36,012 bases of DNA from a virus. The translations under genes and the position numbers were made by a program. Below the pieces are notes generated by a model. The model searched no databases. It had not been told where the DNA came from and saw only the letters and a list, made by a program, of their open reading frames with translations. Shown here piece by piece: positions 2,641 to 18,614 of the stretch (its first letter is position 1; every line of letters starts with the position of its first letter). The stretch lies in IMG/VR virus record IMGVR_UViG_3300025151_000129, positions 1 to 36,012 of that record. One strand, 5' to 3'.

Positions 2641-2827
2641 TCGATATACCATCTTTCGTAAGAATAAACGTATTTTTACAAATCTTACGGAGGATGAGTA
2701 TCTGGAGATCATGCAAGATCTTGCAATTGAATTTTATGAGACTGGATCACCAAATCCAGAGCACTTGAAAACACAAATTACAAATAATTATGGAGCAACA
2801 AAATGGCTAGAGCAAAAACAGGACTAA
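2618..2827 (+). CDS. 69-residue conserved cyanophage protein
   Basis: The product is 69 residues from MKRLVSSDRYTIFRKNKRIF to KWLEQKQD. A basic N-terminus (RKNKR) precedes the acidic helix TNLTEDEYLEIMQDLAIEFY and a TGSPNPEHL turn. ATG 2618 overlaps the end of the glycosyltransferase by 23 bases; GTG 2630 in the same frame is an alternative start. I recall similar proteins in cyanophages but no function. The following gene also overlaps it, so the three genes look translationally coupled. It may be a small adaptor or regulator, but nothing in the sequence decides this. Confidence 0.65.
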   Translation: MKRLVSSDRYTIFRKNKRIFTNLTEDEYLEIMQDLAIEFYETGSPNPEHLKTQITNNYGATKWLEQKQD

Positions 2828-2952
2828 TTAAAGACGGTTATGTACAGTCGAGACCGAAAAAAACTCGTCAGGGCAACGGAAAACACAGTAAGAGAACCGC
2901 AACTTCTCGCAACTCTGCTCGTAAGATGTACAGAGGGCAGGGTAAGAGGTAA
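2803..2952 (+). CDS. very basic 49-residue cyanophage protein
   Basis: The product is 49 residues, starting MARAKTGLIKDGYVQSRPKK and ending MYRGQGKR. It has 16 Lys/Arg and only one acidic residue, giving a net charge of about +15, and is rich in Gly, Ser and Thr with few hydrophobic residues. It should be unstructured alone and bind nucleic acid. A nearly identical small protein is common in T4-like cyanophages, although its length makes it easy to miss. The start at ATG 2803 overlaps the preceding gene by 25 bases. It could act in DNA condensation, as an RNA-binding factor, or as an inhibitor of a host complex; none is proven. Confidence 0.75.
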   Translation: MARAKTGLIKDGYVQSRPKKTRQGNGKHSKRTATSRNSARKMYRGQGKR

Positions 2953-2979: not shown

Positions 2980-3669
2980 ATGGCATGTTTGATAACAAAC
3001 CTTCCTTCACAAGAAGTATGGGTTCGTAAGGAATATTTAACAGATCATCAAAGTGGGCACGGGGAATTTGTAAAGGGCGTTTGGGTTTCGGCAAAGTCGA
3101 TTCCCGGACGCGCTTTTTATTTTGAGACATATTTACCCGAATATGCCGCAATGTATGATAAATTACCGATTAGTGCCTTTTTAAGTGAACCTGTTCTCCC
3201 TGATCCGGATATGACTCTTCATAACCTACAGTTCTGGAACTGTATGGACTATGGCGTAGTGACGGTACAGAAGCAATTCATTGGTTCTATGCACTATGAG
3301 GTCTATACAAGGGATTACGGCACTCAGACGGGCACGTACATATGCACTCTGGACAATTATCATCAGGATCCTGATGTGGTTGACTATGCAACCAGTGAAA
3401 ATCCGTCCGAACACAAGTCACATAACCTTATTGAACTTGATAATGGTCAGTATTGTCTCTATCCAAATAACAGAACTCGTATTTTTGATAATAGTTTGAC
3501 TCCTGAAGAACCAAAAATACCCGATTTTAAGGTTTCGACCGTATATTATCAGGTTGAAAATGGTCATGATCGTGATGGACTGGGTAATGATGAGAATTAT
3601 TTCTGGAAAACGGCAAAAGAACGTCAAAATAGTGAAGAAAATGTTGAAAATGAAGGTATAAATAAATAA
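2980..3669 (+). CDS. 229-residue conserved cyanophage protein
   Basis: The product is 229 residues. The N-terminal half is strongly conserved in my memory of cyanomyovirus genomes: MACLITNLPSQEVWVRKEYL, then GHGEFVKGVWVSAKSIPGRA and FETYLPEYAAMYDKLPISAF. The middle has CMDYGVVTVQKQFIGSMHYE and the end has YYQVENG and YFWKTAKER. It is rich in aromatic residues and has no membrane segment. No enzyme motif is recognised. It often sits just upstream of gene 25 in this phage group, which suggests a virion or morphogenesis role, but that is only context. A late promoter octamer lies inside its last codons, so transcription of the virion operon begins here. Confidence 0.7.
   Translation: MACLITNLPSQEVWVRKEYLTDHQSGHGEFVKGVWVSAKSIPGRAFYFETYLPEYAAMYDKLPISAFLSEPVLPDPDMTLHNLQFWNCMDYGVVTVQKQFIGSMHYEVYTRDYGTQTGTYICTLDNYHQDPDVVDYATSENPSEHKSHNLIELDNGQYCLYPNNRTRIFDNSLTPEEPKIPDFKVSTVYYQVENGHDRDGLGNDENYFWKTAKERQNSEENVENEGINK
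3657..3664 (+). promoter_or_regulatory. T4-type late promoter (TATAAATA)
   Basis: This is an exact match to the T4 late promoter -10 octamer recognised by the gp55-type late sigma factor. It lies in the last codons of the preceding gene and 17 bases before the gp25 start. It is the likely main late promoter of the baseplate operon. Confidence 0.75.
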
Positions 3670-3681
3670 AAACTCTGTTCG

Positions 3682-4086
3682 ATGGCGGTTAAACGGACAT
3701 CAAGAGCGTTTAAGGACATAAGTTTGTCATTTGAACCTCATCCAGTTACGAAAGATTTCCCAATATTGAAGAATGAATCGGCAATTCGCCGTTCTGTAAA
3801 AAATATTGTGCTTACAATACCTACAGAAAAGTTTTTTAATTCGTTATTTGGGTCAGATGTCTATGGTAGTCTCTTTGAATTTGTTGATTTTGGAACTGCA
3901 TCGATTATTCAGCAGCAAATTCAGACATCAATTGAAAATTTTGAACCAAGAGTGAATAATATTGGTGTAGATGTCTTTCCATCACCCGATGAAAACACTT
4001 TTGAGGTTACAATTTCATATGATATTATTGGACAATCATTTCCAACACAAGAATATACGTTTCTATTAGAGGCAACGAGATACTAA
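3682..4086 (+). CDS. gp25: baseplate wedge subunit gp25
   Basis: The 134-residue product matches the GPW/gp25 family in length (T4 gp25 is 132) and motifs. The signature NESAIRRSVKNIVLTIPTEK (from about residue 31) is followed by FFNSLFGSDVYGSLFEF and the C-terminal strands VTISYDIIGQ and YTFLLEATRY. In T4, gp25 joins the gp6-gp7 heterotrimer bundle at the baseplate core and connects the wedge to the first sheath ring. The gene follows a late promoter octamer and ends one base before gp6, as expected for subunits made together. There is no Shine-Dalgarno sequence. Confidence 0.92.
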   Translation: MAVKRTSRAFKDISLSFEPHPVTKDFPILKNESAIRRSVKNIVLTIPTEKFFNSLFGSDVYGSLFEFVDFGTASIIQQQIQTSIENFEPRVNNIGVDVFPSPDENTFEVTISYDIIGQSFPTQEYTFLLEATRY

Positions 4087-4087
4087 A

Positions 4088-6004
4088 ATGCCTTTTACTA
4101 AATTTTCTAATCTAGATTTTGATCAAATAAAGACATCCATAAAGGATTATCTACGTTCAAATTCAAATTTTTCGGATTTTGACTTTGAAGGGTCTAATTT
4201 TTCAGTATTGATTGATACATTAGCATATAATACATACATAACTGCCTTTAATACTAACATGGCAGTTAATGAATCCTTCTTAGATTCTGCAACAGTAAGA
4301 AGAAACGTGGTTTCTTTGGCATCTAATATAGGATATCTACCTCGTTCCAGGAAGGCATCAAAAGCTACGATATCATTTAGTATTACTCCAAATAATGATT
4401 CAAGTCTCACAAATGTAGTTCTTCAACCAGGAGTTGTATGTACTGGTAGTGTCAGTGATACTTCTTATATTTTTTCTACTATAGAACCAATAACCGGAAT
4501 TATAAACGAAGGTACAGTTTCTTTCAATTCCATTGACATATATCAAGGAACTTTTCTCACAAAAACATTTACATTTGATGCTTCAATAAATCAAAGGTTT
4601 GTTCTTGAAAATTCTTTTATTGATACAGAAACAATAAAAGTTTATATAAAGAGAAGTGGTGATAATGGTGATGGTACTGAATATAAACAGATTGATAATA
4701 TTATTGATGTTGATAAAGATTCGAGAGTTTATTTTGTTAGAGAAATTGATGATCAAAAATATGAATTAAGATTTGGTGATGGAATTTTTGGTAAAAAACT
4801 AGGAACAGAATCGGGAGATGATGGTAATATAATCACCGTAAAGTATTTGATAACAGATGGTGAAGATGGAAATGATGTTTCCCAGTTTTCTTTTGCAGGA
4901 ACCATAAAGGATGAATCTGTTATTCTTACATTCGATTCTCCCACACTAACCATTGATAGCACTAAGTCTCAAAATGGTGCCGATATAGAACCATTAGATT
5001 CAATTCGTTATTTTGCTCCATTATCATATTCATCACAGAATAGAGCTGTTACGGCAAAAGATTATGAATCTATAATTAAGAGAATTTATCCAGATACTGA
5101 GTCTCTTTCTGTTGTTGGTGGAGAAGAAATGGATCCACCTCAATATGGTAATGTTTTAATTAGTATTAAACCCAGAGGTGGTAATTACATATCAGATTTT
5201 AATAAGAATCAGATATTATCAAAGTTGAGACAATATTCCGTATCTGGTATTAATCAAAAAATAGTAGATTTAAAATTACTTTTTATTGAACTAGAATCAA
5301 GTGTTTACTATACAGATTCATTTGTTTCAAATGTTGAAGAATTGAAATCGAAAATTATTAATACTCTGACACAACACTCAAAATCAGTCAATTTAAATAA
5401 ATTTGGTGGTAGATTTAAGTACAGTAAAACACAGCAGATTATAGATTCTGTTGATAGAAATGCAATTACATCTAATATTACAAAGGTTATAATTAGAAGG
5501 AATTTAAATGCAACCCTAAATCAAAATGCACAATATGAATTGTGTTATGGAAATCAATTTCATGTAAAACCAGATGGTTACAATATCAAATCTACTGGAT
5601 TTAATATATTGGGAGAATCCTCAAAAGTTTATCTTACTGACAGACCAAATGCAGGATATAAAACAGGAGTTTTGTCAATTGTAAAACAAAATACAGATAA
5701 CGGTGAGGTTGTTGATGTAAAAAGAAATGCAGGAACAATTGATTACATCAAAGGAGAAATAGAATTAGAAACCATCTATATTACATCTACAGATAAACCT
5801 GATAATGTGATAGAAGTAGAAGCAGTTCCAGAGTCCAATGATGTTGTTGGACTCAGAGATCTGTACCTAAATTTGAATGTTTCAAAAAGCAGAATAAATA
5901 TGATTAGGGATGTTATTTCTTCAGGAGTAGAAGTTTCTGGAGTAGAATTTATAAAATCATCTTATACTTCAAGTTATTACAACGGGAAATTAGTAAGACA
6001 GTAA
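4088..6004 (+). CDS. gp6: baseplate wedge subunit gp6 (baseplate J-like)
   Basis: The 638-residue protein is close to T4 gp6 (660). The N-terminal region carries the hallmark of phage baseplate J/gp6 proteins: DTLAYNTYITAFNTNMAVNE, then SFLDSATVRRNVVSLASNIG and YLPRSRKASKA (about residues 44-98). Next comes a beta-rich domain with YELRFGDGIFGKKLG and a core with YFAPLSYSSQNRAVTAKDYE (about residues 308-327), typical of J-like proteins. gp6 dimers form the inner iris ring that links wedges and triggers sheath contraction. The gene sits directly between gp25 and the gp7-position gene with one-base gaps. Confidence 0.92.
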   Translation: MPFTKFSNLDFDQIKTSIKDYLRSNSNFSDFDFEGSNFSVLIDTLAYNTYITAFNTNMAVNESFLDSATVRRNVVSLASNIGYLPRSRKASKATISFSITPNNDSSLTNVVLQPGVVCTGSVSDTSYIFSTIEPITGIINEGTVSFNSIDIYQGTFLTKTFTFDASINQRFVLENSFIDTETIKVYIKRSGDNGDGTEYKQIDNIIDVDKDSRVYFVREIDDQKYELRFGDGIFGKKLGTESGDDGNIITVKYLITDGEDGNDVSQFSFAGTIKDESVILTFDSPTLTIDSTKSQNGADIEPLDSIRYFAPLSYSSQNRAVTAKDYESIIKRIYPDTESLSVVGGEEMDPPQYGNVLISIKPRGGNYISDFNKNQILSKLRQYSVSGINQKIVDLKLLFIELESSVYYTDSFVSNVEELKSKIINTLTQHSKSVNLNKFGGRFKYSKTQQIIDSVDRNAITSNITKVIIRRNLNATLNQNAQYELCYGNQFHVKPDGYNIKSTGFNILGESSKVYLTDRPNAGYKTGVLSIVKQNTDNGEVVDVKRNAGTIDYIKGEIELETIYITSTDKPDNVIEVEAVPESNDVVGLRDLYLNLNVSKSRINMIRDVISSGVEVSGVEFIKSSYTSSYYNGKLVRQ

Positions 6005-6005
6005 T

Positions 6006-9000
6006 ATGAAAGATTCATACCTTGAAACAAGGATCAAAGTTCAAGACATTTTAGGAAATCAACTTCCTAGATTTATTGTAGACGAAAGTCCAAAAACAGT
6101 AGATTTTTTAAAACAATATTATATTTCCCAAGAATATCAAAGTGGTCCTGTTGATATTGCAGAAAATTTAGATCAGTATTTGAATCTTGATACTTTAGTA
6201 TCAGAAGTTATAGTTGGTGTAACTACCCTGTCTTCTGATATATCATCGACAGAAACTACAATAACAGTCAGTAGTGGAACTAAAGGATATCCTGATGAAT
6301 ATGGATTATTAAAAATAGATGATGAGATTATTACGTACACCGGAATAACATCAACAAGTTTTACTGGTTGTATTCGTGGATTTAGTGGCATTACCGATTA
6401 TCATCAAGATTTAAATCAAGAAGAGTTAGTATTTTCTTCATCATCTGCGGCATCACATAGTGGCGGATCTTCAATTACAAATCTTAGTTCATTATTTTTA
6501 AAAGATTTTTACAATAAATTTAAATTTACATTTGCGCCAGGATTAGAAGGTAAAGATTTTATATCTTCTTTGAATGTAGGGAATTTCTTAAAAGAGATAA
6601 AATCATTTTATATTTCTAAAGGCACAAACGAATCCTTTAGAATTTTATATAATGTTCTTTATGGTAGAGAACCAAAAGTAATAAATTTAGAAGAACTAAT
6701 ACTCAAACCTTCTTCTGCAAAATTCAAAAGAAGACAAGTTGCCTTAGCCAGATTGATATCTGGAAATCCTTTAAAGATAAAGGGTCAATCAATATTTAAG
6801 GATAATTCTTCTAGTGAAGCATCAGTATCTGATATACAAGCAGTTGTAACTGATAATGAAGTTTTATATCAAATTGACCTGTTTATTGGATATGATGAAA
6901 TTTCTGACATCAAAGGTATATTTAAAATTACACCAAATAGTAAATCTGTTGAGGAATCTGCCGCTGGTTCAAAGGTAATAACAGTAGATTCTACACTAGG
7001 TTTTTCTGATAGTGGAACAATAGTTTCTGGAAATAATACTATTACTTATACTGATAAAACCATTAATCAATTTTTAGGTTGCACGGGAATAGAAAGCACA
7101 ATTGAAAAAAGTGATATTGTAAGAAGTAATGAATTGTATTTTGGGTATGAAGATGGAGATACCAGTAAAAGGGTAGATTTAATTTTTGTTGGTGTATTAA
7201 ATGACTTTGTTCAAGATGGTAATTTGGATATTGATGAAGGAGATGTATTAAAAATAAAAAATTATGGTATAAAAATTGAAAATCCAGAGAGTAACAAAAG
7301 TAAAAAAGAAATTTTTTCAAATTCTTGGATATACAATACTAGTTCGACCTATCAAATTACATCCTTTAACAATCAAACCATTCAATTAAGTAGTTTAATT
7401 GATCGTTCGAGTCTTAAAAAAGGAGATAATATTGAAATTATTGATAGATTTACAAAAAATAGAATATTTCCTACTAACAATAACGATCAATATCCGATTA
7501 TTACTGCAATAGATATACAAAATAATAGTGTAATTTTAGATAATTTTGCTTTCAGTCCCGATGACGCTAAAAATTATAATTTAAGAAGAGTTCTTAATAA
7601 AGCAAAAACAGAATCAGAAAAAACATTATTGAAATATGGAAATTCTGTAATTACTTCTGATGTTCAAAATGTTTATTTTGATGACATCAACAAAGATTTT
7701 TATGTTGCCTCAAATTCATTACCATCTGAAGTTAATGATAGCGAAGTTAGTGGTAGCAATGAATATAGGGAAAATTTGAGTGTTGAGGTGGTTCAGGAAT
7801 CATTATCAAGTGCTATTGCAAATGACCCACCAGAAGAAGAGGATAATTTACGTGAGCGTAATGATGATGAAAAATACACACAAATTAAATTTACTTCAAA
7901 CCCAATAAAATTTAGAACCGGAGATAAAGTATTATATTCCCCTAAAGGAGAAGGAGATCCTTTATTGGGTTTGACCGAGGGTATATATTATGTTAAGAAG
8001 ATATCTTCAAATACGATTGAATTGTATTCTTCTTTACCAGCAATTGATGTAGGTAGAAAATTAGGATTTTTAGCACCAATTTCAAATGATTTGGGTCATG
8101 TTTTCACACTATACTCTCAAAGAACTAATATTATTGATTCTCAAAAATTATTAAAAAAATTCCCATTAGTTTCAAATTTGAATAAAAATCCATCCCCCAC
8201 AAACCATGGTGGAATAGGAATGTTGATAAATGGTGTTGAAATTGATAGTTACAAATCATTAGATAAAGTTTATTACGGAAAACTCAATAGTATTGACGTT
8301 TTAAATGGTGGAGAAGATTTTGATGTTACAAATCCTCCTGAACTGGTGGTATCCGAGAGTTCTGGAACAAGAGCTCTTGCTCAACCAGTATTAAAAGGAA
8401 CAGTCACAGATATTTTAATTGATGAGTTTAATTACAATGTTAATCAAGTAGTTTCTATAGGAGTTACCGGAGGTAATGGGACAAGCATATCTGTTGTTCC
8501 TATCACACAAAAAAGATTTGTAGAACTTCCATTTGATGCCAGATCTGATAGTAATGGGGGTAAAATTACATTATCAAATAATAGAATTTTATTTGATGAC
8601 GATCACGGTTTAGATGATGGTCAAGAGGTAGTTTATGATTCAAATTTAAATAATCCTTTAGGAGTTGGTGCAGGTTCTTCAACGTTAGTGAGTGATGGAA
8701 GATATTTTGCTAAAGTTTTAAACAATAAAACAATAAAACTTTTTCCAACTCTTTCTGATTTAAATGGTAATACTAATGAAATCAACTTTAATGGAACTAA
8801 CACATCTGGTGTTCATAAAATTAAAGTAGGACCTTATAACTTATTAAGACAAATTAATGTATTGGATGGTGGAGTATTTTACAACAATAAATTACAAGTT
8901 TCTCCTTCGGGAATATCGACAATTACGAATACAATTAATTTCAACAATCATGGATTTAATAGTGGTGAAATAGTAGAGTATTCGTCATCCGGAACAACGA

Positions 9001-12000
9001 TCACAAATTTAAACATTAATAATCAATACTATGTTTTAAAGATAAATGATAATTCTTTTAGAGTATGTGATGCTGGCATTGGAGGAACAGTGTCAACAAA
9101 TTATGATAAGAAAAATTATATTGAATTTGATAATACCGGAACAGGATATCAAACATTTAAGTATCCTGATATAAAAGCTTTTGCAAATGTTGTAACTGTT
9201 GGATTAGGCACAACTAGTACACAATCTATTACTTTAACTCCTGTTGTTAAAGGATCAATAGATAGAGTTCATTTATATGAGGCAGGAACAAAATATGGAT
9301 CTACAATAAAAAACTATGAAAGAAAACCAACAATAAGTGTAAAGAATGGTAGAGATGCCAGAGTTAGACCAATTATTGTAGGTGGACAAGTTCAAAGAGT
9401 TAATGTTGAATACGGTGGTGCAGAGTATTACTCTATTCCCAATTTAAATATTATTGATCCTACCAATTCTGGAACTGGTTGTGTCTTACGTCCAGTTATA
9501 GAAAATCAACGATTAGTTGAGGTAAAGGTTATTAATGCCGGAGCAGGATATTCGGAGACACAATCTTTTATAGATGTTACTTCTTCAGGTAAAAATCAAG
9601 TATTTGATTCTAATGTTAGATCTTTAACTGTGATAAATGGAGGTAATTTTGATGTTGATAATAATCTAATTTTTGATAGTAAAGTACTTTCAGAAAACAA
9701 AAAAGAAACAGCATTAAATTATTCTGTTCTCAACTATGAAGACAATATTTTCTTAGATAATTCAAGTAAAATATCTGGAATTATTGGGTGGGCATATGAT
9801 GGAAATCCAATTTATGGACCTTATGGATCTAAAGATCCCAATGAATTTAGTGTTGCAGAAATTTTAACATCAGGATACACCAAGAATAGTAATTTAGTAG
9901 AAGATCGTCCCTCTACAAGTATATTCCCAGAAGGATTTTTTGTTGAAGATTATACATACGACAATAGTGGGGATTTAGATGAATATAATGGTAGATTTGA
10001 GAAAAACAGTGATTTTCCTAATGGAGTATATGCATATCATGCATTATTAGATGGAAACGGAAAAGGAGTATTTCCTTATTTCATCGGCGACAAATATTAT
10101 TCATCTCCAGAAAAAGAAAACTTCAATGATATTGATCAAACATTTGATTTCAATAATTCAAATTTAAAGAGAAATACTTTTCCATATAAATTATTTGATT
10201 CTTCATCTGAGAATAATTTTATTAGAAATAATATAGAAAAAGAACATAGAATTGAAATAGTATCTACATCGTCAGGTTCAATAGAATCTTTTAATATTAA
10301 TGATGGAGGAACTGGATACAAAGTAAATCAAATTTTAAAATTTGACAATTCAAGCACTAATGGATCCGGAGTATCTGCAAAGATTTTTGCTGTAAAAGGA
10401 AAAGATATAGTAGATGTAACAACGACAGAGACTAATATTACAAATGCTATTTCATCCAATGAAGGCGGAAAAATAAGAGTTTCTGTATCAACAAGTCATC
10501 CTTTCAACGATAATGATATCATTTCTTTTAGTGGAATATCATCAACATCTGTTGCAGATCTTCAAGTATTTTCAAAAATAAATGTTCTTCCTTTATCAAA
10601 TACTAGATGTTTATCAACAGTATCTTCAGTTTCTGATGTAAGTACACCCATATCTTCAGATATTTTAGTTTCCTTTATACCATCATATGTTTCTGCAGAT
10701 AGTGTAGTGTCAATAGGAACAGAAACTTGTACGGTATTGAATGCTTATCAGGACAGTAACATTCTTACGGTACAAAGAACTCTTACAGGACTTGAACATC
10801 CAAAGGGAACTATTTTATCATATACCCAAAAAGATTTTACCGTTGATGTTGATATTCCAACATCGTTATTTGGTATTGATGATTCTAAAGTTAATGAAAA
10901 GGTTTATTTCAATCCATCTCAATCTGTAGGAATTGGAACTACTGTAGGAACTACGAATAAAGTTTCTTTTACTCGGGCAGGTACACCAATAACACGTAAT
11001 ATTCCTGTTCAAGAAATTTATTTAGAAAATCATCCATTTACAACTAATCAAAAAATTGTTTATGAGGGTCCTAATAGTGCTATTGAAGTTAAAATATCTC
11101 CTAGTGATTCCTCTAATATAAATTTAGAAAACTTTTCTACATTGTATGCCGTAAAAACTAGTGCAAATACTATTGGAATAAAAACTGGAATTCAAACATC
11201 AAATTTATATTTTATTGAGGCTGATGATAAAATTAATGCATCTTTTAGAACAGATTATGATCAAATAACGGTAGATTTGAAAAAAATTAACTCGGTGGTT
11301 TCTGTTTCAACTTCTCATGGAATGAATACAGGTGACACCGTAATATTAGATCATAAATCTAATTTATCAAAGACCGTTACCTTAAAAAGAGATTCTGAAG
11401 ATGGTTTTATTTTAGTTAATCCAGATAATGTTGATTCTTTTACAACAGCATCTAATATTTTAACCTTGACATCTCATGAGTTCAAGACAGGAGACAAAGT
11501 AAAATATTCCACAACAGGAACACCTCCTACAGGATTGACAAATGATTCATACTATTATGTTTATGTTGATGGTGTAGACACAATACAGTTATGTGAAACT
11601 TATGTTGATGCGGTTGAAGTTCCATCTAACGCGGTTACATTTTCTTCAACAGGATCTGGAACGCATACAATATCCTTAGTTAATTCTCAAATTTCATTAA
11701 CAAGAAATGATAATTTAGTATTTGACACATCAGATTCTTCACTATCCGAATATACTCTTAGACTTTTTTATGATCAAGAATTTGATAATGAATTTGTATC
11801 GACCGGATCAACTTCTTCATTCTCTGTAACAGGTATTGGATCTACTGTAACAACATTAACTTATAGTGATTCTTTACCTGATAAATTATACTATGCTTTA
11901 GAAAAGTCTGGACACATTAGCACGGCAGATTTTGATGTCAAGAATTATTCTGAAATAAAATTCTTTGATAGTGGATATGATGGTGAATTTATTATTACTG

Positions 12001-15000
12001 GTGCAGGAACAACTACCTTTACAATAAATCCTCCATCTGTAGAAAGATTATCATATACTAAATCTCAAACTGATACCTTTGAATATGAAACTACATCAAC
12101 ATCTGCTGTTGGTCCGGTTTCTAGGATAACATTAATGTCTGGTGGATCAGATTATAAAAAATCTCCAATCTTTGTTGGGGTTGGAACTACAACATCAACA
12201 AATGCACTAATTATTCCATCTTCAAAAGAAATAGGGAATGTTAAAAACATTAGATCCATATCCAATTCATTTGAATATCTTTTTGATAGAACATTAAGAC
12301 CAGAAGCATTAATTCCACAGAAAGTTGAGTTTTTAGATTCTAATACAATTGATACTATAACTGTTACTAATAATGGTAGTAACTATATTAATAATCCTGA
12401 TGTAATTATTATTGATAGTAATACAAACAACATTATTAATTCTGGATTTTTGACTTCAGAAATAAATTCTGGAGAATTAATAGGTGTCAATGTCATTACA
12501 GAACCAGTTGGACTTCCTGAAAAAGAAATCACCATAAGAACAATTAATAATGATAATGGTGTTGCCATTACTGGTGTCACCACAGACTCTAATACTAGAT
12601 TTAAGTGTACCATACAAACACCATTATCTGGATTTAGTAAAAAACCTTTTGAACAGGGAGATGAGGTATACATTGAGGGTATAACTGCTTCTTCAGGACT
12701 TGGATTTAATTCTGAAGATTATGGATATAGATTTTTTGAAGTTGTTAATGTAGAGACGGACTCTGGTAGTAATGTAATTACTTTTGATTTTACTGGAATA
12801 TCAACAAATATCGGTGTTCCTGGAACTGCATCAAATTATGGTAGATTAATACCAAAAACTGATTATCCACAATTTAGCACCACATATAAAACATCTTTAT
12901 TTACGATTGGTGAAAATATACTCTGTAATGGAATAATCACAGATCTTGAAGTTGTTGAAAGTAAAACAAACTATTTAAAAATTATTGGTAGATATGTAAT
13001 ATCTTCTGGAGATAATATTGAGGGTTCTATATCCAAAAATACTGCTAAGGTTTCAAAAATTACAGATAATAAAGGAACATTTACAATTGACTTTTCCGAT
13101 AAAGTAGAATTTGGATGGGATGATGATACGGGGAAAACAAATACAAGTGTTCAGGTAATTCCTGATAATGATTATTATCAAAATTTATCATATTCTGTCA
13201 AGAGTCCAGTTACTTGGAAAGAGTCTGTAAATACTACAAATAATTTAGTTCACACTATTGGACTTAAAAACTTTGCCGATACTGAAGTTGAAACTAGTTC
13301 TAGTGTGTCTATTGGAGGAACTAGTGCATCTGTAGTTATTGTTGATGTTATTGACAAACTAAGAGCTGATACAATTTATAATTTTGATAATGCAAGAGAT
13401 GTTGATGTTGCAGATGGAAAATCAAGATTTATTGAACTTGAAAATACAAGATTAACTGATTATATTAATTGTAAAACAAATAATGCACTGACCATTGATA
13501 ATATTAATCAACAATTCTCTAATTTGGAAGATTCTCCAGATGAATTTTTAAATATTGATAATATTGATGGTTCTTCTAGATTTGATACTTATTTGGTCAA
13601 ATTGAATAGCTTCCCAAGAAATAAAAATCAAGCTCAATTATCAGAAATTGTATTATTGAGTAGTGGTGATAGTTCGGATAACATTTTAATAAACAAATTG
13701 GAATTAATAAATTCTGGCGATGGTGCTATTACTTCTGTTGATGAATTATATGGATCTTATCAAATTCAATTACATGAAGATGGTGAAAACTATTTTAGAT
13801 TTGTTCCAAATGATCCATATGATGTTGATTATGATCTTAAATTCATAAAAACATCATTTGGTTCATCCGCAGGTATTGGATCTACTACTTTTGGATCTAC
13901 AACACTAAGAACTTTTACGGCATCAGTGTTTCCTGATACAACTCAGGTAACAGGATATGATATCAATCAATATAATGCACTATATGTCAACACAAAAGTA
14001 GAAGATCTTATTACACATGAAATGAATTACGTCGAAACTTATGTTACCCATGATGGAACTGATACTAAATTAAGTGAGAGTTTTGTCGGATCTACTTTAG
14101 AAACTAACCCTCAAATTGGATTTTCTACAGCATCTATTTCTGGTAGCACTTTAATACTTGGATATGAAAATCCGGCAGGTAATAATAAAATTAGAATAAG
14201 TCAAAAAATTGTTGGCATTGGAACTACTGGATCAGGAAATGGTGAATATCGTTACTCTATTGGTTCTGAACAAATTGCCGGTGCAGAAAGAAGTGCGGTA
14301 TATCAATCTATAAATCAAGTTGGTATAGGGACCACAACTATTGTTGAATTAGATTCAAGTTTATTTGATGCTGCAAAATCTATTGTTTATGTTCAATCAA
14401 ATAATTTTAGTGCTTTGCATCAGTTAACAGTATTGCACGATGATACCAATGGATATATTCAGCAAGCACCATTCTTAACTAATGATGATGTTGTTCCTAT
14501 CACTGGATTAGGTACATTTGGTGTTGAATTTTCTCCTTCCGGAAATCTTACTGTTAAATTCCATCCAGAAGATTCAGTTGGTGTAACTACTGTAAATATT
14601 TTCAATCAGGCAATATATAAAATCTTAGATCTTGAAAATACATATCCAAGTTTGGATTATGGCAGAGTATCTGAAAGTGTGTCTAATGCTTCTTATAATG
14701 CCGTAAATGGTGCTAGAATTAATAAAAAAGACTTTGACTTAAAGTATCAAAATACTCCTATATTTTCTAAATCATTTAATCCATCCAGTGTTATAACGGC
14801 AGGAACAGGAAAGAGTGTTTTTAACATTGAAGATCATTTCTTCAGACCCGGAGAAGAATTGATTTATACTCCAAATTCAACGATTGTTGGAGTTGGATCT
14901 ACACCTATGATGTATGAAGATGATGCCGGAAATGTGGGTGTCTTGACATCAAGAGTATTTGCCATTCGCGTAACAAAAGATAGTTTTGGAATTTCTACAA

Positions 15001-18000
15001 CTAAAACCAAAGCAAATGCAGGAATTGGTGTTACCATAACATCATTTGGTGAAGGTAATGCCCATATATTTGAAATGGCAAAATCAAATGAAAAATCAGT
15101 AATATCTATTGACGGAATAATTCAATCTCCAATTAATGATATTCAAGTAAGTCATACTTTAGAAAATAATCCTGGTTCAGGTATTGGAACGACTACAACT
15201 TTATTCAGTTTGAGTGGAATATCCACAATAAAAGTCGATACTATATTGAAAGTTGAAGATGAATATATGAGAATTCTTAGCGTTGGTATAGGAACTTCAA
15301 CTTCAGGTCCTATCACTGTTGGTGTAGGAACTTACAATTTAGTAGAGGTCACTAGAGGATTTGTTGGAAGTTCTGCAACATCACATGCAAATGGTGTATC
15401 CGCCAATCTTTTTCAAGGATCATTCAATATTGTTAACAGTAAAATACATTTTGCCGAAGCTCCCAGAGGAAATCCTCAACAAACCACTCTTGAAACTGGA
15501 TTGCCATTCCCAAGATCTACTTTCAATGGAAGAGTATTTTTGAGAAATAGTTATGATACAAATATCATTTATGATGATATTTCAAAAGATTTTACTGGAA
15601 TTACATCAGAATTTATTCTTAAGAAAAATAGTGCTAATACAGTGGGTATTGGTACTAGTGGTGGTAATGGAATTGTATTAGTAAATGGAATTTATCAAAC
15701 ACCAATAACTGAAAATAATCGTGATGGAAATTATAAAATTATAGAAGATATAAATGCCGGAATAACGACAATTAGATTCACTGGAATTACTGTAGAAAAT
15801 ACAGAACAACTTGCAATATCTGATACTGATGTTAATAGAAATGAATTACCTAGAGGTGGGGTTCCTGTAACTTTAGGTTCAACAGGAGGACTGGGATATG
15901 CTCCTCTTGTTCCAGCAAATGTAATACCGTTTCTTGATGGTAATGGTGCAATAACAAGCATAATTGGTGTTGCCACAGCAAAACCTGATTTGGGAATTAA
16001 TACAGCGTCTTATGATAAGACAACTGGTATTTTATCAGTTACTACAAATACAAATCATGATTTTAATTTTGGAACAGATTTTGTTAAATTAGAAGGATTA
16101 GAATTTTCTTGTCCTGGTGGATCTGGAATTACAACAACAATTTTCCCAGATACTGCAACTAAAGTTTTTGCCATAACAAAAGTTGTATCACCAACTATTT
16201 TTGAAACTAAAGTAGGAACCAGCACCATTACACACACTTATGTGGGTCAAGGAAGTGCATATCCATATTATCCAGATTTAACATTTGGATCTGGATATAA
16301 TAACATTGTTAGTATTGGTGTTACAGTTTATGATCCATCACAAGATGCTGGTGGTAGTATAGCAACTATAACTGCATCACCAGTTGGGTTTAATACTCAT
16401 ATTTTTGTATCAGCAGTGGATACAGGTTCAATTGCTTTAGCATCTAACCCAACAGATAAAAGAACACCAACTAATGTTTTATATGATCCATTATCTGGAA
16501 TAGCAACATTTGTATTGGGTGAAAATCATCCTTTCTCTGTAGGAGACACCGTTACTATTGCCGATAATTCACTAACGTTTACGTGTGCTCAGGATAGTCA
16601 TCAAACTAATCATTCATATCCAAGGAGCACTGATCCCATGGGATCAAATTCTACAACCTCTATAGGATCAACAGATGACACAACTGTTACATTGAATGTA
16701 GGATCCTCTGCAGCACATGGTGGGGGAAGATTGCAGTTTAATATTGGTGCAGGTGGAACTGGATACAACGATCCTCAAATTTTTGTATCTCCACCATCTT
16801 ATGAAAGTTTAGAGGTAAGAGGGGTTTCTAGATTGGGTGTAGGTAACACCACTGATACTGGAAGTGGATTACTTGTTGATATTGTTATGCAACCATCTTC
16901 AGAATATGCTGGAATTGGAACTTATGAAGTTGGAGAATTTGTTGTTGCAAGATCTGGATTTGGTTTTGAAAGAGGAGATAAATTTGAACCTGTTGGATTG
17001 GTCACAGACTATAGACTGGAGCAAGTAAAAACTCAATTTAGAATGGAGGTTACTGAAGAATTTACTGATAGTTTCTGTATGTGGCAATTTGGTGAAATTG
17101 ATTATATTGACTCAATTAAAGATCTTCAAACGGGTTCTAGAAAAAGATTTCCAATCAAATATAATGATGAATTGTTCAGTATAGAAAAAGATGATGTTTT
17201 ATTTGAAGATGGTGATCTTTCAAACATTATGTTAGTTATAAGAAATCGTGTTGTTCAAGAACCAATATTACATTATTATTTTATTGGTGGCACTTCAATT
17301 GTATTTACTGATGCACCTGAACCACAAGATGATATTCAAATCTTCTTCTATAGAGGAACTAAGGGTGTTGATGAAACAATTGGAGCAGCAACCACAAACG
17401 CTCCTATAAAACCAGGTGATCAAATAATTCTCTCAAGTCCTCTTGGATTAACAACCAGTCAAACGGTAAGAACTTCTTTCAGAATTTCCAACTCTGATAG
17501 TTTAGAAACTAATGTATATTCTGGTGAAGGTATTGATGAAGAAAATTATAAACCAATTACAGTAATTAAACAAAAAAATAATTTTGTTGCCGATGGTGAA
17601 CTTGTTACAAAAGATCGTAAGAGCTTAACGTCAAGAATATTCCCCGTGGCTAAAATTATTGGTGACATTGAAACATCAACAGGAAAGTTTTTTGTTGATA
17701 CTGTAAATTTATTTGATTATGAGAATAATATAAGTCAAGATACGATTTCTGCACGATTGGTTGCCGAAACTTCAAATCCAGTTGCAGCTGCCATAACAGC
17801 AACTGTATCAATTGCGGGAACAATATCAGCACTTACTATTAATGATGGTGGTTCTGGATATAATTCTTCATCACCACCAACAATTAAATTATCAAATCCA
17901 TATGACACATTCGATGTAGATGATGAAGGAAGATCTATAATTAGTAGTATTGGTGTTACTGCTACTGCTACTGCAACAGTCAGTTCTGCTGGAACTGTAA

Positions 18001-18614
18001 GTAGTGTAAGTATTACCAATGCTGGTTCTGGTTATACTACGGATACTCCTCCTGGTGTAATTGTTGGACTATCCTCAATAATATCTGAAGAAATTGGATC
18101 AATAGGAATTGTTACCTCAATGTCTGGGGCAATCATTGGTATTGGAACTACATTATCTTCATCACAACTTGCGATTAAGTTTACTACAGAAAATGCAAGA
18201 TCATTTGATGGAGTTATTGGAGTAGGTGATCCAATATTCATATATGACACTGAAGTTGGATCTGGAGTTACATCAGTAAATGCGACAGATTCCAACGTAG
18301 TTGGTATAGGAACAACATTTGTAGATAATATCTATATTATCTCGGAGTTGAGTGAAAGTGGTAATCCTATAGTGGGGGTAATAACATGTACAGTGAAGAG
18401 TGATACAAGTACCACAGGAATTAGTACTGTGGGTTATTCTACTAATCCCGTAGGAAGATATTCTGTGGGGATTATTTCGAGTATTACTAGATCTTCATCA
18501 CCAATTTCTATAGGTGTTACAGGTCTTACAGTTGATGCCGGACTAACTACTTTCCCATCAATTGTGAGAACGGGTGGTCAGATCACTTTTAATGAAAGTG
18601 GTGCCATTAACTGA
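6006..18614 (+). CDS. gp7: giant baseplate wedge protein in the gp7 position
   Basis: This single open frame encodes 4202 residues, about four times T4 gp7 (1032), and fills 35% of the window. Its place between gp6 and gp8 and an N-terminus of cyanophage-gp7 type (PRFIVDESPKTVDFLKQYY, then FRILYNVLYGREPKVINLEE near residue 215) support the call. The interior is a chain of beta modules: a YHYH domain (about 1258-1365); at least eight 'H-G/P-F...GD-V' modules; four 'IDDEIITY...RG' modules; G-x-GY repeats; and many GIGTT strings. Near residues 3677-3790 there is a conserved segment, VTEEFTDSFCMWQFGEIDY to IFFYRGTKGVDE. It probably forms the wedge backbone plus long surface extensions that might contact fibres or the host surface. 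No stop or frameshift interrupts it. Identity with T4 gp7 outside the N-terminus is inferred from position only. Confidence 0.8.
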   Translation: MKDSYLETRIKVQDILGNQLPRFIVDESPKTVDFLKQYYISQEYQSGPVDIAENLDQYLNLDTLVSEVIVGVTTLSSDISSTETTITVSSGTKGYPDEYGLLKIDDEIITYTGITSTSFTGCIRGFSGITDYHQDLNQEELVFSSSSAASHSGGSSITNLSSLFLKDFYNKFKFTFAPGLEGKDFISSLNVGNFLKEIKSFYISKGTNESFRILYNVLYGREPKVINLEELILKPSSAKFKRRQVALARLISGNPLKIKGQSIFKDNSSSEASVSDIQAVVTDNEVLYQIDLFIGYDEISDIKGIFKITPNSKSVEESAAGSKVITVDSTLGFSDSGTIVSGNNTITYTDKTINQFLGCTGIESTIEKSDIVRSNELYFGYEDGDTSKRVDLIFVGVLNDFVQDGNLDIDEGDVLKIKNYGIKIENPESNKSKKEIFSNSWIYNTSSTYQITSFNNQTIQLSSLIDRSSLKKGDNIEIIDRFTKNRIFPTNNNDQYPIITAIDIQNNSVILDNFAFSPDDAKNYNLRRVLNKAKTESEKTLLKYGNSVITSDVQNVYFDDINKDFYVASNSLPSEVNDSEVSGSNEYRENLSVEVVQESLSSAIANDPPEEEDNLRERNDDEKYTQIKFTSNPIKFRTGDKVLYSPKGEGDPLLGLTEGIYYVKKISSNTIELYSSLPAIDVGRKLGFLAPISNDLGHVFTLYSQRTNIIDSQKLLKKFPLVSNLNKNPSPTNHGGIGMLINGVEIDSYKSLDKVYYGKLNSIDVLNGGEDFDVTNPPELVVSESSGTRALAQPVLKGTVTDILIDEFNYNVNQVVSIGVTGGNGTSISVVPITQKRFVELPFDARSDSNGGKITLSNNRILFDDDHGLDDGQEVVYDSNLNNPLGVGAGSSTLVSDGRYFAKVLNNKTIKLFPTLSDLNGNTNEINFNGTNTSGVHKIKVGPYNLLRQINVLDGGVFYNNKLQVSPSGISTITNTINFNNHGFNSGEIVEYSSSGTTITNLNINNQYYVLKINDNSFRVCDAGIGGTVSTNYDKKNYIEFDNTGTGYQTFKYPDIKAFANVVTVGLGTTSTQSITLTPVVKGSIDRVHLYEAGTKYGSTIKNYERKPTISVKNGRDARVRPIIVGGQVQRVNVEYGGAEYYSIPNLNIIDPTNSGTGCVLRPVIENQRLVEVKVINAGAGYSETQSFIDVTSSGKNQVFDSNVRSLTVINGGNFDVDNNLIFDSKVLSENKKETALNYSVLNYEDNIFLDNSSKISGIIGWAYDGNPIYGPYGSKDPNEFSVAEILTSGYTKNSNLVEDRPSTSIFPEGFFVEDYTYDNSGDLDEYNGRFEKNSDFPNGVYAYHALLDGNGKGVFPYFIGDKYYSSPEKENFNDIDQTFDFNNSNLKRNTFPYKLFDSSSENNFIRNNIEKEHRIEIVSTSSGSIESFNINDGGTGYKVNQILKFDNSSTNGSGVSAKIFAVKGKDIVDVTTTETNITNAISSNEGGKIRVSVSTSHPFNDNDIISFSGISSTSVADLQVFSKINVLPLSNTRCLSTVSSVSDVSTPISSDILVSFIPSYVSADSVVSIGTETCTVLNAYQDSNILTVQRTLTGLEHPKGTILSYTQKDFTVDVDIPTSLFGIDDSKVNEKVYFNPSQSVGIGTTVGTTNKVSFTRAGTPITRNIPVQEIYLENHPFTTNQKIVYEGPNSAIEVKISPSDSSNINLENFSTLYAVKTSANTIGIKTGIQTSNLYFIEADDKINASFRTDYDQITVDLKKINSVVSVSTSHGMNTGDTVILDHKSNLSKTVTLKRDSEDGFILVNPDNVDSFTTASNILTLTSHEFKTGDKVKYSTTGTPPTGLTNDSYYYVYVDGVDTIQLCETYVDAVEVPSNAVTFSSTGSGTHTISLVNSQISLTRNDNLVFDTSDSSLSEYTLRLFYDQEFDNEFVSTGSTSSFSVTGIGSTVTTLTYSDSLPDKLYYALEKSGHISTADFDVKNYSEIKFFDSGYDGEFIITGAGTTTFTINPPSVERLSYTKSQTDTFEYETTSTSAVGPVSRITLMSGGSDYKKSPIFVGVGTTTSTNALIIPSSKEIGNVKNIRSISNSFEYLFDRTLRPEALIPQKVEFLDSNTIDTITVTNNGSNYINNPDVIIIDSNTNNIINSGFLTSEINSGELIGVNVITEPVGLPEKEITIRTINNDNGVAITGVTTDSNTRFKCTIQTPLSGFSKKPFEQGDEVYIEGITASSGLGFNSEDYGYRFFEVVNVETDSGSNVITFDFTGISTNIGVPGTASNYGRLIPKTDYPQFSTTYKTSLFTIGENILCNGIITDLEVVESKTNYLKIIGRYVISSGDNIEGSISKNTAKVSKITDNKGTFTIDFSDKVEFGWDDDTGKTNTSVQVIPDNDYYQNLSYSVKSPVTWKESVNTTNNLVHTIGLKNFADTEVETSSSVSIGGTSASVVIVDVIDKLRADTIYNFDNARDVDVADGKSRFIELENTRLTDYINCKTNNALTIDNINQQFSNLEDSPDEFLNIDNIDGSSRFDTYLVKLNSFPRNKNQAQLSEIVLLSSGDSSDNILINKLELINSGDGAITSVDELYGSYQIQLHEDGENYFRFVPNDPYDVDYDLKFIKTSFGSSAGIGSTTFGSTTLRTFTASVFPDTTQVTGYDINQYNALYVNTKVEDLITHEMNYVETYVTHDGTDTKLSESFVGSTLETNPQIGFSTASISGSTLILGYENPAGNNKIRISQKIVGIGTTGSGNGEYRYSIGSEQIAGAERSAVYQSINQVGIGTTTIVELDSSLFDAAKSIVYVQSNNFSALHQLTVLHDDTNGYIQQAPFLTNDDVVPITGLGTFGVEFSPSGNLTVKFHPEDSVGVTTVNIFNQAIYKILDLENTYPSLDYGRVSESVSNASYNAVNGARINKKDFDLKYQNTPIFSKSFNPSSVITAGTGKSVFNIEDHFFRPGEELIYTPNSTIVGVGSTPMMYEDDAGNVGVLTSRVFAIRVTKDSFGISTTKTKANAGIGVTITSFGEGNAHIFEMAKSNEKSVISIDGIIQSPINDIQVSHTLENNPGSGIGTTTTLFSLSGISTIKVDTILKVEDEYMRILSVGIGTSTSGPITVGVGTYNLVEVTRGFVGSSATSHANGVSANLFQGSFNIVNSKIHFAEAPRGNPQQTTLETGLPFPRSTFNGRVFLRNSYDTNIIYDDISKDFTGITSEFILKKNSANTVGIGTSGGNGIVLVNGIYQTPITENNRDGNYKIIEDINAGITTIRFTGITVENTEQLAISDTDVNRNELPRGGVPVTLGSTGGLGYAPLVPANVIPFLDGNGAITSIIGVATAKPDLGINTASYDKTTGILSVTTNTNHDFNFGTDFVKLEGLEFSCPGGSGITTTIFPDTATKVFAITKVVSPTIFETKVGTSTITHTYVGQGSAYPYYPDLTFGSGYNNIVSIGVTVYDPSQDAGGSIATITASPVGFNTHIFVSAVDTGSIALASNPTDKRTPTNVLYDPLSGIATFVLGENHPFSVGDTVTIADNSLTFTCAQDSHQTNHSYPRSTDPMGSNSTTSIGSTDDTTVTLNVGSSAAHGGGRLQFNIGAGGTGYNDPQIFVSPPSYESLEVRGVSRLGVGNTTDTGSGLLVDIVMQPSSEYAGIGTYEVGEFVVARSGFGFERGDKFEPVGLVTDYRLEQVKTQFRMEVTEEFTDSFCMWQFGEIDYIDSIKDLQTGSRKRFPIKYNDELFSIEKDDVLFEDGDLSNIMLVIRNRVVQEPILHYYFIGGTSIVFTDAPEPQDDIQIFFYRGTKGVDETIGAATTNAPIKPGDQIILSSPLGLTTSQTVRTSFRISNSDSLETNVYSGEGIDEENYKPITVIKQKNNFVADGELVTKDRKSLTSRIFPVAKIIGDIETSTGKFFVDTVNLFDYENNISQDTISARLVAETSNPVAAAITATVSIAGTISALTINDGGSGYNSSSPPTIKLSNPYDTFDVDDEGRSIISSIGVTATATATVSSAGTVSSVSITNAGSGYTTDTPPGVIVGLSSIISEEIGSIGIVTSMSGAIIGIGTTLSSSQLAIKFTTENARSFDGVIGVGDPIFIYDTEVGSGVTSVNATDSNVVGIGTTFVDNIYIISELSESGNPIVGVITCTVKSDTSTTGISTVGYSTNPVGRYSVGIISSITRSSSPISIGVTGLTVDAGLTTFPSIVRTGGQITFNESGAIN
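6262..6402 (+). repeat. first copy of the 'IDDEIITY...RGFSG' module
   Basis: Residues of about 86-132 of the gp7-position protein contain LLKIDDEIITYTGI and FTGCIRGFSGITDYH. Related copies lie at about 6975-7100 (NTITYTDKT, GCTGIEST), 10687-10815 (VSIGTETCTV, QRTLTGLEHPKG) and 15205-15400 (LKVEDEYMRI, VTRGFVGSSATSHANG). A further copy lies in the DUF4815 protein at about 26460-26620. The shared pattern is a strand with an acidic EE/DE pair, a hydrophobic strand, then RG-x-x-G-x-x-x-x-x-H. Confidence 0.55.
7903..11660 (+). repeat. repeated 'HGF-x-x-GD-V-x-YS' beta modules in the gp7-position protein
   Basis: Protein-level repeats of about 50 residues start near 7903 (FRTGDKVLYSPKG), 8590 (DDHGLDDGQEVVYD), 8940 (NNHGFNSGEIVEYS), 10485 (TSHPFNDNDIISFS), 11008 (ENHPFTTNQKIVYE), 11300 (TSHGMNTGDTVILD) and 11465 (TSHEFKTGDKVKYS). 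Each is followed by a tyrosine-rich strand (YYVKKI, YYVLKI, YYYVYV) and a strand ending in 'T-I-x-L'. Two more lie at 16045 and 16517. They look like small beta domains in tandem. DNA identity between copies is low, so they are old. Confidence 0.6.
9778..10101 (+). other. YHYH domain inside the gp7-position protein
   Basis: Around residues 1258-1365 the segment IIGWAYDGNPIYGPYGSKD is followed by EDYTYDNSGDLDEYNGRF, FPNGVYAYHALLD and FPYFIGDKYY. This is the pattern of the YHYH domain (PF14240), with the GWAYDGNPIYGP core and a Tyr-His pair (AYHA). The family occurs in marine bacterial exported proteins and cyanophage virion proteins; its activity is not known. Metal or carbohydrate binding is a guess. 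Confidence 0.75.

Follow-up and report, generated by a model that had tools for sequence, protein, structure and literature searches.

A small basic protein conserved upstream of gp25 in T4-like cyanophages has a core under strong purifying selection and is a candidate nucleic-acid-binding protein

The 49-residue, highly basic protein encoded at positions 2803-2952 of the window (the whole stretch of viral DNA analysed here, 36,012 nucleotides) is the product of a real gene, the core of which is under strong purifying selection. The protein is a member of PHROG 516 / T4-GC 394, a known family of T4-like cyanophages without assigned function, and does not differ from it. T4-like cyanophages are among the most abundant marine viruses, and a gene that nearly all of them carry and that lacks an assigned function is a worthwhile question. 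We tentatively favour the reading that it encodes a small, probably disordered, non-virion protein that binds nucleic acid, DNA being the likelier ligand, and that is made before or independently of late transcription. At the profile level the family has relatives in phages that represent three tail types and infect two host groups, and this link between unrelated phages makes a common intracellular target a question that can be addressed with a synthesisable 50-residue peptide. The features of the window on which the analysis relies are the following.

1882-2640, + strand: upstream gene, 252 aa, PHROG 1574 (no function annotated); phage glycosyltransferases are weakly similar (E 4e-4).
2618-2827, + strand: small upstream gene, 69 aa, PHROG 3252 (E 3e-17), overlapping the basic gene by 25 nt; start codon chosen by reading.
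2792-2795, + strand: GGAG, Shine-Dalgarno-like, 7 nt 5' of the ATG of the basic gene; read from the sequence.
2803-2952, + strand: gene for the 49-aa basic protein, PHROG 516 / T4-GC 394 family; ATG ORF, PHROG 516 at E 1.1e-19, 444 tblastn records, purifying selection.
2854-2946, + strand: coding region for residues 18-48, the conserved core (PKKTRQG...YRGQGK), as seen in the column counts of 89 distinct proteins; pN/pS of the core is 0.11 in close pairs.
2932-2943, + strand: RGQG codons, residues 44-47, identical in 89/89 aligned members; RGQG is also found in S-CREM2 and S-CRM01.
3657-3664, + strand: TATAAATA, putative late-promoter motif (motif from the available part of PMC2984593), the first such site after the basic gene, with 17 nt from its end to the gp25 ATG.
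3682-4086, + strand: gp25 baseplate wedge gene, with which the late block starts (PF04965, E 1.7e-12; PHROG 261).
4088-6004, + strand: gp6 baseplate wedge gene (PF21379; PHROG 219).

The first-pass annotation had described a reading frame of 49 residues with 16 Lys/Arg, one acidic residue, a charge of about +15 and low hydrophobicity, and all of this was confirmed (net charge +15, pI ~12, GRAVY -1.64). With 0.31 charges per residue the protein ranks first among the 47 ATG ORFs of 40-70 aa in the window, the next one reaching 0.19. The overlap with the upstream neighbour was correct as well and amounts to 25 nt if that gene is read as 2618-2827, the start of which in turn overlaps the end of the gene at 1882-2640. 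Across 89 distinct family proteins P18, K19, Q23, N37, K41 and R44-G45-Q46-G47 are identical without exception, and G24 is identical in 88, the residue of the remaining one being unreadable; RGQG is followed by Lys or Arg in 85 proteins, by Asn in two and by His in one, the position being missing in the last. An AlphaFold2 model computed from 77 sequences had a mean pLDDT of 58 and a pTM of 0.14 and contained neither secondary structure nor a confident fold, so that the protein is probably disordered according to the prediction.

Selection was assessed on 110 loci, comprising 80 IMG/VR loci (the best of at least 526), the window, 12 annotated phage regions and 17 matches in genome contigs. In 287 close pairs (<20% nucleotide difference) pN/pS was 0.23 for the whole protein, and a value of 0.39 for its N-terminal part compares with 0.11 for the core, showing that the constraint on the basic protein sits in the core. 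When all pairs were considered the core pN/pS was 0.22 in frame versus 1.9 and 2.8 in the shifted frames. The first-pass annotation had named the lack of purifying selection on the frame as the result that would overturn its proposal; the low core value in close pairs and the loss of the signal in the other frames leave the proposal standing. Two explanations were rejected, a chance ORF on the grounds of the purifying selection together with the shifted-frame control, and a conserved RNA element on the grounds that synonymous sites differ at pS ~0.7.

As a reference we used gp25, which is complete and on the same strand in 102 of the 110 loci (97 distinct coding sequences), the other eight being left out of the comparison. 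In pairs where gp25 is only 33% identical (331 of 5151 pairs) the basic protein is 65% identical, and in the bands with gp25 more than 70% identical it is slightly less conserved than gp25; median dN/dS was 0.24 for the basic protein versus 0.21 for gp25. At moderate distances the basic protein is thus no more constrained than gp25.

The protein of the window matches the full PHROG 516 profile (positions 1-48 of 48), and 26 of 26 aligned family members match PHROG 516. A tblastn search of 50,697 phage records returned 444 at E<=1, 439 of them named Synechococcus, Prochlorococcus or 'Cyanophage' and five being 'Marine virus' single-cell records, where all phage counts refer to records rather than distinct phages, GenBank and RefSeq copies of one phage being counted twice. 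The expectation that the protein is widely conserved in cyanophages was thus borne out. Relaxing the threshold to E<=10 gave 449 phage records with the full protein, including a single Rhodococcus match at E 7 that we take as chance, and 450 with the core peptide (358 Synechococcus, 63 'Cyanophage', 24 Prochlorococcus and five 'Marine virus'). As a yardstick, gp6 of the same window was found in 373 Synechococcus and 61 'Cyanophage' records at E<=1e-5, and the similar numbers, compared as counts and not as lists, suggest that the basic gene is near-universal in T4-like cyanophages. S-B43 (MN018232.1) matches PHROG 516 at two places, 51393-51536 and 138092-138235, reflecting either a duplication or an assembly mixture.

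The notion that the gene is easily missed by gene callers held for a minority of genomes: among evenly spaced records no feature was annotated at the match in 3/60 (full query) and 4/60 (core query), P-SSM2 being one such genome, whereas nearly all others listed carry a hypothetical protein there. Genes in the matching place of S-SM1, P-RSM4 and S-PM2 bear the label T4-GC 394. A literature search, with supplements, figures and most subscription papers outside its scope, found no mention of phrog_516 or YRGQGK. Among the papers listed on small basic, histone-like or small proteins of cyanophages, titles and opening lines of the abstracts showed nothing that evidently concerns the gene, nor did the available parts of PMC9602691, PMC5931967 and PMC5082946.

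A host origin of the gene was considered as well. A search of 300 Cyanobiaceae genomes with the main profile gave matches in 15 at E<=0.1, only one of them strong, and the contig with this strong match also carries psbA, so that this contig of a single-cell genome (G002) is regarded as phage. The other 14 matches (E 0.008-0.094) are partial, eight containing stops, and the profile of the second subfamily described below matched four of 201 genomes at E<=0.01, all partially and three with stops. A host gene was ruled out on this basis, the strong match being regarded as phage and the rest partial, many with stops. The 17 genome-contig loci with the basic gene come mostly from contigs titled as metagenome-assembled genomes (MAGs) of other phyla. 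Four of the 17 were checked for psbA, which lies on the contig of the basic gene in a cultured flavobacterium, Nonlabens (L109) and a Prochlorococcus single cell (L099), on other contigs in one MAG (L107) and is absent from a second one (L110); a non-cyanobacterial host was rejected on the psbA-bearing contigs. The Nonlabens xiamenensis contig (NZ_RMVE01000006.1) is 188 kb long and combines psbA, gp25- and gp6-like genes and the basic gene, suggesting that it is probably a cyanophage contaminant.

In the 102 loci with a complete downstream gp25 the gap between the basic gene and gp25 is 26-2477 nt, and the genes in between as well as those upstream vary among loci; in S-TIM5 and S-B43, which are exceptions, the basic gene lies beside other genes. 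The available part of PMC2984593 gives NATAAATA as the cyanophage late promoter motif. In 92 of 103 loci it occurs in the interval from -80 to +12 nt around the estimated gp25 start, with the TATAAATA form near the gp25 start in 65 of 103, and is found in none of 106 loci in the 80 nt preceding the basic gene, where the background is 0.025 per 80 nt. Correspondingly, the 3 kb upstream contain 0.084 motifs per kb, eight times fewer than the 0.68 per kb of the 3 kb downstream. Since the motif is present near gp25 but not before the basic gene we infer from the sequence that the basic gene closes or nearly closes a pre-late block. In the window a single gene, 2980-3669, separates it from the late promoter. 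A missing motif is no proof of non-late expression, as in S-SM1 two genes that precede the basic gene, one of PAAR type and a large one named wedge subunit in RefSeq, also lack NATAAATA. In S-SM1 and S-CAM8 the stop codon of the basic gene and GATAAATA overlap, and the end of this gene thus has bases in common with the presumed gp25 late promoter; the overlap is recorded at position 6346 of L139 and position 4104 of L088.

The conservation anticipated across cyanophages appears to be exceeded, with profile-level relatives in podoviruses, siphoviruses and pelagiphages. Cluster C is split: S-CRM01 matches PHROG 516 (2.4e-16) and S-CREM2 matches it weakly (E 0.26) at 37,570-37,722. When the S-CREM2 protein was used as query 16 records were found, including S-H34, S-B68, S-N03, four further Synechococcus myovirus-sized genomes and the T7-like podovirus S-CBP42, with weaker matches to the siphovirus-sized S-CBS2 (E 0.007) and S-CRES1/2 (E 2-3); S-CBS2 and S-CRES are siphoviruses. 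The S-CBS2 query in turn gave 19 records, adding Syn5 gp19 (8e-5) and S-CRES3, as well as 26 IMG/VR loci. These sequences define a second subfamily with the consensus KRTSIGxGxRKRGS...KRYRGQG(K/R), members of which are matched weakly or not at all by PHROG 516 alone. A third query retrieved nine Pelagibacter phages at E 0.5-3, and two further queries had no phage match. Two Pelagibacter phage proteins and 25 sequences among the best 80 IMG/VR loci form a pelagiphage group of 22 distinct sequences, in which the Tyr before RGQG is mostly Asn and two of the 22 depart from RGQG. All 21 relatives listed carry a net charge of +10 to +17, an unrelated Erwinia protein (-6) being left out; the Erwinia matches (E 1-4) were taken as chance, the one that was read being acidic and 120 aa long.

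By hhalign the main family aligned with the podovirus, siphovirus and cluster C group at 94.8%, the score lying above 400 of 400 shuffled controls, of which 0/200 whole-column and 0/200 core shuffles reached it. The value was 96.9% for the main family against a set of 15, and the pelagiphage group reached 90.6% against the main family and 96.1% against the second subfamily, each above 100 of 100 shuffles. One contig protein (L170) connects PHROG 17967 with PHROG 516, matching the former at 8e-6 and the latter weakly at 0.025. On two T4-like contigs, L154 and L158, a second-subfamily version lies upstream of gp25, and this occupation of the same locus supports a common origin; NATAAATA precedes gp25 in L154 and occurs nowhere in L158. 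The proteins of Syn5 (gp19), S-CBP42 and S-CBS2, together with PHROG 17967, resemble the window family in size, charge and the anchors K(K/R)TSxG and YRGQG(K/R), but differ in gene neighbourhood and in the middle part, which reads RKRGS or SSMNK instead of KHTKYSATSRN. Judged by these profile comparisons the family looks wider than the cyanomyoviruses, and we propose to call the larger grouping the marine-phage RGQG superfamily. The superfamily links are built on short basic sequences; the shuffles argue against composition alone as their cause, and convergence is possible.

The neighbourhoods of the relatives are varied. In S-CBP42 and Syn5 the gene lies between the RNA polymerase/integrase genes and those for ssDNA-binding protein, endonuclease and primase, and in one contig (L160) between an integrase and a Gp2.5-like SSB gene. 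A ribonucleotide reductase gene is near in S-CBS2, S-CRES1 and three contigs (L151, L152, L161), a sigma-factor gene in S-H34, S-N03 and L161, and a Gam-like gene in L164; other neighbours encode a terminase (L170), an Hsp20 (L167) and, in two pelagiphages, an M15 peptidase. In S-B68 the only named neighbour functions are a phosphatase and a hemagglutinin-domain gene, and the two neighbours in L162 had no family match. psbA is present on two of nine virus contigs of relatives tested.

Composition, the absence of a predicted fold, the strict basic motifs and the gene context together point to nucleic-acid binding, which was among the candidates proposed at first and, on these sequence-derived grounds, is the one that we tentatively retain. 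The protein would be produced in infected cells, either ahead of late transcription or irrespective of it, and would bind nucleic acid via two basic anchors, approximately K(K/R)T(S/R)xG and the C-terminal RGQG(K/R), joined by a basic linker; the ligand would more likely be DNA, either replicating phage DNA or the host nucleoid. Binding itself, the preference for DNA over RNA, the absence from the virion and the time of expression are all inferred. More speculatively, the gene may be a hallmark gene for a small basic protein, mostly of 40-50 residues with a C-terminal RGQG(K/R), that is exchanged among marine myo-, podo- and siphoviruses of cyanobacteria and SAR11 and acts pre-late on a target conserved enough to be shared by a cyanobacterium and an alphaproteobacterium, such as nucleoid DNA, the ribosome or RNA polymerase; we consider this possible but clearly uncertain.

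The ligand might instead be RNA, for example the host ribosome or rRNA, with motifs working like the tails of ribosomal proteins and shifting translation towards phage mRNA. A target that evolves slowly, such as rRNA, would fit the strict conservation of a short basic peptide in phages that differ in tail type and infect two host groups. We nevertheless regard this as unlikely, as a ribosomal Pfam family was matched by 0/26 members and 0/8 further relatives (E<=10, a search in which the HMMER filters drop many weak matches), solved structures gave no match, and the gene context speaks of DNA metabolism more than of translation. The sole Pfam match among the 26 members was to AKAP7, in one member (E 0.009).

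Equally improbable, in our view, is another candidate of the first-pass annotation, an inhibitor of a host machine; the protein would then act on a host enzyme, most plausibly RNA polymerase, and block or redirect it much as T7 Gp2 does. This analogy would be in keeping with the apparently pre-late position, with the sigma-factor genes close by in S-H34 and S-N03, and with the place of the relative in Syn5 and S-CBP42 between the RNA polymerase/integrase and ssDNA-binding protein genes, which we take to be approximately the position of gene 2 in T7. The likeness to the T7 RNA polymerase inhibitor is one of position only, in that the gene of two cyanopodoviruses has a roughly corresponding place with respect to the SSB gene, while Pfam gave no inhibitor family and the composition is that of a nucleic-acid binder.

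A minor virion or baseplate assembly factor, or an internal DNA-condensing (protamine-like) protein, could be expected next to gp25, the gene being upstream of it in the 102 loci, and a PAAR-type gene adjoins the basic gene in S-SM1 and S-MS29, and a tail-fibre-like gene lies near one relative (L166). Promoter position and the relatives in other phage types make a role in the tail or virion less likely: in most loci gp25 comes with a late promoter, which the basic gene lacks in the 80 nt preceding it, and podoviruses and siphoviruses possess no such baseplate. Moreover, the S-CREM2 virion table as available from PMC10665884 lists 52 proteins and none at 37,570-37,722, which is a result for one phage and for a class of small basic proteins that tryptic mass spectrometry easily misses. 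The label 'hypothetical' of the S-SM1 basic gene is uninformative on presence in the virion, as GC 969 is a known virion protein (PMC3037559, in its available part) yet was also called hypothetical in the original S-SM1 record. Altogether we find a virion role doubtful to a greater degree than RNA binding or enzyme inhibition.

A kinship with the QGR loop of H-NS is the least probable explanation and is kept as a minor one: the protein shares a C-terminal GQG(R/K) with the H-NS/StpA DNA-binding domain, the two align without gaps over 31 columns that end at the QGR loop (hhalign 22.9%, E 9e-4; score reached by 0/200 whole-column shuffles), and 3/26 members match StpA weakly (best E 0.058), but the target was picked after a scan of 18950 models, 1/200 core shuffles reached the score and the sister subfamilies gave only 0.7% and 1.7%. 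The H-NS motif is TW(S/T)G(Q/R)GRTP in the available part of PMC4466236, and its Trp and Pro are invariant in six aligned H-NS-type proteins; Trp is present at the aligned column in 0/89 family proteins, the basic protein ends before the Pro and the helix that follows, the window copy lacks the aligned Tyr, and there is no oligomerisation domain. Membership in H-NS was ruled out by the absence of the defining Trp and Pro and by the loss of the profile match in the two other subfamilies. Among 101 Cyanobiaceae genomes 0 had an H-NS domain, a result that speaks against a host H-NS as the target but leaves DNA binding as such unaffected.

Several other genes of the window gave observations in their own right. 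Upstream, the 62-aa product of 1646-1834 (PHROG 661) has a weak match of the MazE-antitoxin type (PF04014, E 5e-4) and the 75-aa product of 1219-1446 a weak match to the KTSC domain (E 0.008), both below the cut-off. The 229-aa product of 2980-3669 has no Pfam match, and its labels conflict, PHROG 3704 being labelled ferredoxin and the S-SKS1 gene in the same place PurM. Finally, gp6 is followed by one open frame of 4202 aa at 6006-18614, in the place that the baseplate wedge initiator gp7 has in P-SSM2.
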